Of a DNA stretch of 64,000 bases, positions 22,812 through 26,660 are shown in pieces. Under the pieces are notes generated by a model. It did no database searches and was not told the origin of the DNA. It saw only the letters and a program-made list of their open reading frames with translations. Origin of the DNA: Alphaproteobacteria bacterium (lineage in GTDB: Bacteria > Pseudomonadota > Alphaproteobacteria > DSM-16000 > Inquilinaceae); the NCBI GenBank assembly GCA_028284045.1, contig JANQSN010000005.1, positions 1 to 64,000 of the forward strand. Reading direction: 5' to 3'. The translations under genes were made by a program, and so were the position numbers. Numbering within the stretch: position 1 is the stretch's first letter; each line of letters begins with the position of its first letter.

Positions 22812-24755
<1,944 letters not shown>

Positions 24756-25081
24756 TGCCGGACGTCCCCTCGACGATGTTTATCGGTTGTTGAGCCGTTT
24801 TCGGCCGCTTTGGCGTAGGCGACGCCGCCGCCCGGCGGAGTGTGATCCCCGTCCTTGAGCGCCGGCGCCGAGGCCATGCTCTCGCATTATCCATCTTTTG
24901 GTGTCCCCCTCAACGCCCGGCGGCAGGGATGCGTTAACCGTTCGCGCCCGACGATCGCCGGAGCGCCCGGGCGGCGGTAGGTGGCGTCGTTAACCAGAGC
25001 TTAAGGGCTCGACGACAAGAATGCCGGGATGAGAGGCCGCCTCAGCCGGCCCGCCAACTGACCAGGACAGGACGTTCCGCC
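24756..25081. other. Divergent regulatory region between acs and a small gene
   Basis: It contains a CtrA-type box, a second TTAACC half-site (24934-24939) and no gene-like frame. The acs promoter must lie near its left end; I could not place it. Confidence 0.5.
24990..25004 (+). promoter_or_regulatory. CtrA-type binding site
   Basis: TTAACCAGAGCTTAA is an exact TTAA-N7-TTAA, the box of the alphaproteobacterial cell-cycle and motility regulator CtrA. It is 78 bp before the ATG of the small gene at 25082. In GC-rich DNA two TTAA blocks at this spacing are rare by chance. Confidence 0.65.
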
Positions 25082-25339
25082 ATGTCGCATGACCGGTCAT
25101 CCCCGTCGCCCATGGTCGCCGTTGACTGTGCCCACGAGCTGGCCGATGCCGGCGAACGGATCTGCGTCGCCGCGTTGGAGACGATCATGAGCGCCGTGGA
25201 GGCCGAGCCGGTCCGCTTCGGCGAGGCCGCCGATACCGTCAAGGTGGTCGCCGAGAGTGTCTCGGAGATGGCGAGCGACCTGTTTCCGGAGGCCGACCGG
25301 GTCTCCACCCTGCGCCCGGCCGAGCCGATCTCCGCCTGA
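25082..25339 (+). CDS. Small hypothetical protein behind a CtrA-type box
   Basis: An 85-residue acidic protein, mostly predicted helix (ADAGERICVAALETIMSAVEAE; AADTVKVVAESVSEMASDLF). It has two Cys and no membrane segment or signal peptide. AGGACAGGACG precedes the ATG. The helical, heptad-like pattern suggests a small regulator or adaptor. I do not recognise the family. Confidence 0.6.
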   Translation: MSHDRSSPSPMVAVDCAHELADAGERICVAALETIMSAVEAEPVRFGEAADTVKVVAESVSEMASDLFPEADRVSTLRPAEPISA

Positions 25340-25388: not shown

Positions 25389-25811
25389 TTAGGGGATCTC
25401 CGGCGCGATGCCGCCGAGGCGGCAGATATGCGCCCAATGGGCCGGATCGACCGGCATCACCGATAGCCGGGACTGGCGGATCAGCGCGAGATCGCCGAGC
25501 GCGGGATCCTGCTTGATCGCCGCCAGCGTCACCGGATGCGCCAGCGGCCGCTCCGCGCGCATGTCGACCATGCCGAAGCGGCCCGAGGCATCCGACGGGT
25601 CGGGATAGTACTCCCGCACCACCTCGACGATGCCGACGATCTCCTTACCCTGATTGGAATGGTAGAAGAAGGCGCGATCGCCCAGGCGCATCGCCTTCAT
25701 ATTGTTGGCGGCCTGGTGATTGCGCACCCCGTCCCAGGAGTCCACGCCGGCGGCGACATGGTCGTCCCAAGACCAGGTGTCGGGTTCGGATTTCACCAGC
25801 CAATAGGCCAT
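25389..25811 (-). CDS. EVE-domain protein
   Basis: A 140-residue single EVE domain, a PUA-like fold thought to read modified bases in RNA or DNA. Signatures: MAYWLVKSEPDTWSWDD at the start, WDGVRNHQAANNMKAM, GDRAFFYHSNQGKEIVGIVEV, and the C-terminal LSVMPVDPAHW. ATG 25811 is chosen over GTG 25820 because family members start there. It follows the YciI-like gene by 36 bp on the same strand, a pairing usual in this group. Confidence 0.93.
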   Translation of the reverse strand: MAYWLVKSEPDTWSWDDHVAAGVDSWDGVRNHQAANNMKAMRLGDRAFFYHSNQGKEIVGIVEVVREYYPDPSDASGRFGMVDMRAERPLAHPVTLAAIKQDPALGDLALIRQSRLSVMPVDPAHWAHICRLGGIAPEIP

Positions 25812-25847
25812 CGCCACCACCGATCCAGGGAAACCTGAACGGGCGTT

Positions 25848-26253: not shown

Positions 26254-26403
26254 TCACGTCATCTGGCGGCGCGCGTGACGAAGCCAGTGCGACTGAACGG
26301 ACAGCACGGCTTGCGAGCAGGTGGTGACCGTCTTCGCCATCTCGAAGAAGGTCTGCACGTAGGCGAGCTGCACGCTTACGGGCGTGAGGTACCGTCCGGT
26401 CAT
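26254..26403 (-). CDS. Small hypothetical protein (49 residues) with strong ribosome site
   Basis: An ATG at 26403 follows GAGGAGTGAGACA, one of the best ribosome sites in the window. The 49-residue product begins MTGRYLTPVSVQLAYVQTFF, has an amphipathic helix and ends in a basic tail (HARRQMT). No family is recognised. It precedes an unusually AT-rich 250-bp region and lies between tsaD and the YciI-like gene, all on the minus strand. The frame continues to 26451, but the longer start has no ribosome site. Confidence 0.5.
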   Translation of the reverse strand: MTGRYLTPVSVQLAYVQTFFEMAKTVTTCSQAVLSVQSHWLRHARRQMT

Positions 26404-26660
26404 TGTCTCACTCCTCGATCCTGCCCTTAAGGACGTTATTAGGTGCTCCACCAGCTTAATACTCGCAACGTCGAACCTTGGATCACTTCTCGGATAAAGA
26501 AGATCACCTAAATTTGCTTAGAAGACGAATAATTAGCGGTCCATCTGTCGCGAGATCTTGCCTCGGACGCTCTTCTTAACGGCTCGGCCTACCGCGCCGC
26601 AAGAACAAGCCTGCGATGACTTCAATATTTCCGCGGCGCGGGACGTCAGGACCGGGATGA

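Follow-up and report, generated by a model that had tools for sequence, protein, structure and literature searches.

What does an 85-residue protein do when its gene follows an exact CtrA-type box? We pursued this question for a locus within the window, a 64-kb stretch of alphaproteobacterial DNA. PMC6180460 gives the full CtrA site as TTAA(N7)TTAA and states that full sites near −35 activate transcription. PMC2877005 describes motility and signal-transduction targets in the CtrA regulon of alphaproteobacteria, and, as expected for a member of that regulon, the small gene has a full TTAA(N7)TTAA site.

Promoter, coding potential and predicted fold of the small gene

The full box, TTAACCAGAGCTTAA (24990–25004, + strand), has palindromic fixed positions and counterparts in relatives. 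An exact TTAA-N7-TTAA ahead of a small gene had been reported by the first-pass annotation, and we confirmed it as the sole exact copy in the 64-kb window, where dinucleotide shuffles average 0.01. The reported box position was right, while the spacing of 78 bp was not: the box ends 77 bp before the ATG of the 85-codon ORF (25082–25339, +). Within the 150 bp before the ORF, an 8/8 box was reached by 0/1000 shuffles. Direct reading added a TTAACC half-site upstream of the full box (24934–24939, +) and a ribosome-binding-like AGGACAGGAC just 5′ of the ORF (25064–25073, +), which has purine-rich counterparts in several relatives. A candidate −10 element, AAGAAT, was picked out by eye 12 bp past the box (25017–25022, +), on the basis of AT-rich hexamers that several relatives have ~9–12 bp past the right half-box.

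The ORF is flanked by two genes that served as synteny anchors, the divergent gene at 22812–24755 (−), which we take from its sequence to be acs (acetyl-CoA synthetase), and a convergent gene for an EVE-domain protein at 25389–25820 (−; PF01878, E 4.5e-48). The gene order is acs, small ORF, EVE-domain gene and then a YCII-domain gene. A ATTATCCA-like block 5′ of acs (24885–24900) is kept in the acs upstream regions of several relatives and reads on the reverse strand as TGGATAAT, which is −10-like. A second small ORF in the window (26254–26451, −), with a YLTP...VQ...CSQAVLSVQS motif and no significant Pfam match, is kept beside YCII/EVE genes in G012 and G004 (L006 848–1042 and L007 2368–2562).

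An 88-aa antisense frame overlaps the 85-aa ORF, and a single-sequence search of 60 other genomes returned no relative of the window protein at E ≤ 0.01, as might be expected of a spurious frame in GC-rich DNA and not a real protein-coding gene. We nevertheless regard that explanation as hardly credible. Profiles built without the window protein ranked it best of the 761 frames in the window (E 2.3e-5 and 5.1e-6), and its place and orientation are kept in different families. By NG86, two of the three pairs compared show purifying selection on the small gene, namely G004/G012 (dN 0.012, dS 0.126, dN/dS ~0.09) and G170/G250 (dN 0.084, dS 0.635, dN/dS ~0.13); the third pair, two Azospirillum genes, gave dN 0.235, dS 0.372 and dN/dS ~0.63. 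GC content by codon position (0.69/0.51/0.89 for positions 1/2/3) also fits a gene. Single-sequence searches gave no relatives, and the family described below was found only by synteny and then by profiles. A weak match in the same genome (C19:17747, E 0.003) was rejected as antisense to a gene whose product resembles a signal-peptide peptidase.

The product had been described at first pass as a small helical protein, which holds as a prediction: AlphaFold2 without an alignment modelled helices at residues 10–41 and 46–67 with a turn at 42–45 (mean pLDDT 74, pTM 0.42). The Azospirillum protein gave a poor model by the same procedure (pLDDT 61), with the same helix order. Foldseek against the PDB, using the single-sequence model of the window protein, found no match.

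Conservation of the box with the gene

Within the window's family (17 genomes), acs also adjoins EVE in G004, G012, G006, G008, G009 and G005. The first five carry the small ORF at the same place, in the same orientation and preceded by a TTAAC motif. The acs–EVE interval of G005 is occupied by a predicted lipoprotein gene together with a Rieske-like one, and has neither the small ORF nor the TTAAC motif. In G284 the small gene has the two neighbours that it has in the window, acs on one side and EVE on the other, while in G109 and G347 EVE lies within about 1.5 kb of it. Many genomes with CtrA have acs next to EVE (gaps of 2 kb or more were not counted as clear adjacency) and are without the small gene, which is therefore dispensable. 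In G078, from another family, the place between acs and EVE is taken by a different small ORF, which contains cysteine and is preceded by a TTAACC half-site (L063, 2251–2496). This ORF was left out of the family on the appearance of its sequence; it may have replaced the small gene without being homologous to it, or be a relative that has diverged very far.

We scored the best match to TTAA-N7-TTAA in the 150 bp upstream of 13 syntenic or homologous small genes from the window's family, the Azospirillaceae and one further family. The box was 8/8 in six (G000, G004, G012, G066, Azospirillum sp. TSO35-2 and Azospirillum sp. 412522) and 7/8 in four (G006, G008, G009 and G317), and these ten good boxes end 57–81 bp before the start. 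The G008 ORF, which fails the sequence test, was kept in this promoter count by synteny only. The remaining three genes have no convincing box (6/8 in G170 and G210, 5/8 in G250), and with these exceptions the box is conserved with the small gene in relatives. The first-pass annotation had named loss of the box where the gene is kept as the observation that would speak against its proposal; with 8/8 or 7/8 in 10/13, retention is the prevailing pattern. Sites of 7/8 also occur in five deeper relatives, in AT-rich DNA that lessens the weight of such a match, and these were scored without a shuffle control; the 7/8 site of one deeper relative, G211, lies 143 bp from the gene.

Since the intergenic region is common to both genes, the box might serve the divergent acs, or it might be fortuitous, with the small ORF adjacent by chance. 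The whole genome (4.32 Mb) contains 30 distinct exact TTAA-N7-TTAA sites versus 18 for the reversed control pattern, so that a lone box is weak evidence and it is conservation that counts. Conservation makes this explanation very improbable: the distance to the small ORF is held in 10/13 genes, whereas the 150 bp before acs contained an 8/8 match in 0/13 loci and a 7/8 match in 3/13, one of which (G009) is the box of the small gene itself, read from the opposite side. The acs loci include L193 and omit G317, so the two sets of 13 are not quite the same. G005, moreover, keeps acs and EVE while both the small gene and the motif are missing, and we rejected the assignment of the box to acs on these two grounds. 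In the corresponding 150 bp before EVE, no match of at least 7/8 was present in the ten usable rows of 13 (the L129 row was dropped because of a wrong slice and two rows were too short).

The other 29 exact boxes in the genome fall into 26 loci. Among the genes that they precede are ctrA (two boxes), fliI, motA, flgB, fliX/flgI, flaF, DUF1153, flagellin and PilZ genes, as well as an MCPsignal gene and two genes for HAMP receptors, both truncated where the locus ends. A Pfam scan of 20 proteins from 17 of the 26 loci identified MotA, an FlhB-family protein, a flagellar rod protein, FliX, FlgI, FlaF, DUF1153 and flagellin, along with a response regulator and a weak Tad match; the gene read as fliI matched the ATP-synthase nucleotide-binding domain. 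We take the flagellar rod protein to be flgB, and DUF1153 includes the CtrA inhibitor SciP. Non-motility proteins at boxed loci were BacA, an RTX-repeat protein and a subtilase, and two of the 20 proteins had no Pfam match. The other exact boxes mark a motility/chemotaxis regulon in this genome.

Family resemblance to the chemoreceptor signalling tip

The gene was originally annotated as having no known family. That description stands insofar as the 85-aa window protein has no Pfam match, but it does not extend to the profile family, which resembles the chemoreceptor signalling tip. A 12-member profile searched against 387 genomes found 12 short frames (84–133 aa) at E ≤ 1.3e-20, ten of which were in the profile and two of which (G123 and G347) were new; the next hit was a 594-aa frame at E 1.5e-11. 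An 11-member profile over 387 genomes of the class matched orthologues and many long frames. We read ten fetched loci from the 387-genome search, and five showed typical MCPs, which carry a 27-residue sequence or close variants of it in the matched stretch.

Profile A6 (12 members) was compared with 177,635 PDB sequences, and the 13 best matches were chemoreceptors, all at the hairpin tip (best E 4.7e-5), including the tip fragments 3ur1_C (85 aa) and 4jpb_B (90 aa). The best PDB relatives of the family also include 6s18, 1qu7, 2ch7 and 3g6b/3g67. An hhalign comparison of the family with 14 MCP tips scored 43.7; 200 column shuffles averaged 9.7 and reached 21.1 at most, and the reversed family scored 12.5. 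With 16 members the score was 49.4 (shuffle maximum 18.2), and without the deep subfamily it was 44.0. Since the family profile had itself retrieved the MCPs used for hhalign, the independent evidence comes from the PDB search. The small proteins are not a Pfam or NCBIfam family above cut-off. Pfam MCPsignal matched at the tip below cut-off (L194 9.4e-5, L095 0.014 and L140 0.02), with the best relative at 22.8 bits versus a PF00015 gathering score of 34.6, and DUF6127 hit a single member below cut-off (L095, E 5e-4). NCBIfam yielded nothing beyond weak matches, several of them to chemoreceptors, and tblastn in plasmids gave no match.

By profile and synteny, the window protein belongs to this standalone tip family as a divergent member. 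Its E-value was 0.027 against the deep subfamily alone and 0.0008 against the Azospirillaceae plus G009. Compared with MCPs on its own, it gave no significant match (17.8 by hhalign, inside the shuffle range, and E 0.74 with the MCP-tip profile); its tip identity rests on the family. In leave-one-out profiles the G008 ORF was not recovered, and G210 (E 0.25) and G006 (E 0.0097) were weak, so membership of these three rests mainly on place.

The likeness to the MCP signalling domain (PF00015) consists of profile similarity over ~50–60 residues centred on the hairpin tip and a predicted helix-turn-helix. Family members (~75–95 residues) differ in lacking sensor, membrane and HAMP parts as well as the long coiled coil and the methylation regions, and the window protein, at 85 aa in all, has two short helices in place of the long cytoplasmic hairpin with methylation helices. 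The family turn is usually shorter, the family scores below the Pfam cut-off, and it has its own conserved residues, with a conserved T-S-L-x-x-L-D helix face in the microprotein. On these profiles, the small proteins seem best described as free-standing receptor tips, resembling the part of MCPs that binds CheA and CheW.

The same proteins could instead be CtrA-regulated helical hairpins with another job, such as a polar, flagellar or membrane accessory, their MCP-tip likeness being old ancestry or convergence without any binding of chemotaxis proteins. Several observations would suit that explanation. The window member is too divergent to match MCPs alone, and members outside the deep subfamily retain little of the MCP turn, with its acidic/arginine pattern mostly lost in Azospirillaceae and own-family members of the 16-member alignment. 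In the loci read, the small gene adjoins acs/EVE or other genes and is never inside a che operon. However, an unbiased PDB profile search would not be expected to return chemoreceptor tips as its 13 best matches, the deep members (G211, G284, G109, G123 and G347) keep a clear tip with QTNLVALDKT(I/L)A or close variants, and CheW-domain proteins occur in 17/17 carrier genomes. We consider a job outside chemotaxis unlikely, and favour a chemoreceptor-tip microprotein.

CtrA co-occurrence and a proposed role in chemosensory arrays

CtrA was above the NCBIfam cut-off in 9/17 genomes of the window's family and 28/37 genomes of a second set; in G000 it lies at C24:77016–77687 and scored 420 bits versus a cut-off of 350. 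All 15 small-gene genomes scored (G000, G004, G006, G008, G009, G012, G066, G378, G170, G250, G317, G210, G211, G284 and G109, which are all carriers but G123 and G347) contained CtrA. CheW-domain proteins were absent from G002, G005, G011 and G013–G016, and CtrA was absent from the same seven genomes. G005 thus keeps the acs–EVE adjacency without CtrA, CheW, box or small ORF. CtrA alone is not sufficient for presence of the small gene, since several CtrA-positive genomes with acs–EVE adjacency are without it, as is G003, which has CtrA and CheW yet only a long receptor-like frame and no standalone tip gene that we could find. G007 and G010 were searched for the small gene with the single window protein only, and the G010 EVE locus was also read. 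Together with G001, the only one of them to keep CheW-domain proteins, the seven genomes above make eight of the 17 in the family without CtrA above cut-off. In G000 (C24:76687–82029), no more than about 5 kb separates ctrA from a 942-aa frame that contains a CheW domain, a probable cheA, and the spacing is similar in G004, G009, G066 and G109.

The first-pass suggestion that the product could join a cell-cycle or motility regulon gains support from box conservation, the presence of CtrA in 15/15 carriers scored and the boxes at motility and chemotaxis genes. The chemoreceptor-tip resemblance would turn that broad suggestion into a specific chemotaxis hypothesis. Our preferred reading, to which we assign a probability of about 0.58, is that the ORF encodes a CtrA-controlled, free-standing chemoreceptor-tip microprotein, which would tune chemosensory arrays by docking on CheW/CheA or on receptor trimers. 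Phosphorylated CtrA would bind TTAA-N7-TTAA near the −35 region and switch the small gene on together with flagellar and chemotaxis genes. The product would fold as an antiparallel helical hairpin copying the CheA/CheW-binding tip of MCPs, would most likely dock in the groove of CheW or CheA P5, or join receptor trimers of dimers at the tip, and may cap, fill or tune chemosensory arrays while the motility programme is on. As predicted from sequence, the link of the small gene to the CtrA regulon is well supported, whereas we infer the CtrA binding and activation, the partner binding and the effect on the array.

Placement of the microprotein in the CheW/CheA-P5 groove or at the trimer contact is suggested by the sites of the MCP tip, the 4JPB fragment and the family profile match. 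PMC5706961 assigns to the MCP tip the sites for trimer formation, CheA-P5 and CheW, and PMC6746300 describes 4JPB as a ternary complex of CheA P4-P5, CheW and an unzipped fragment of a chemoreceptor analogue. The TM14 tip fragment in that crystal (3UR1 is similar) has 85–90 residues from the same tip segment as the family, but it is a laboratory construct, while the family here is natural with its own conserved promoter box. ParP of Vibrio, which acts in array integration, is likewise not a receptor, yet it becomes part of the core unit through the receptor-tip interface (PMC5706961). It differs in bringing an SH3-like partner that grips the tip, whereas the protein here would supply the tip. 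The literature searched yielded no description of the small gene as a CtrA target, the CtrA link coming here from sequence analysis, and no natural standalone MCP-tip protein; that literature was thin on subscription papers, and absence is unproven. The regulatory part of the reading would add a candidate target to the known CtrA regulon.

Few signalling machines are understood as well as chemosensory arrays, whose inventory of parts is regarded as almost complete; a conserved microprotein of little more than a receptor tip would come as a surprise there. Being similar in size to the crystal receptor-tip fragment, it lends itself directly to binding tests, and the CtrA box offers a regulator of the cell cycle or of motility a concrete means of setting the composition of the array. 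A further step, which we put forward tentatively and with some doubt, is that a natural soluble tip tied by CtrA to the motility/cell-cycle programme competes with receptors at the CheA/CheW ring, or completes them there, setting array assembly or kinase gain by developmental state. If true, this would be a new class of chemotaxis component across distant alphaproteobacterial families, sited unexpectedly beside acs/EVE, and array assembly or kinase gain would be set by developmental state, beyond ligands and methylation.
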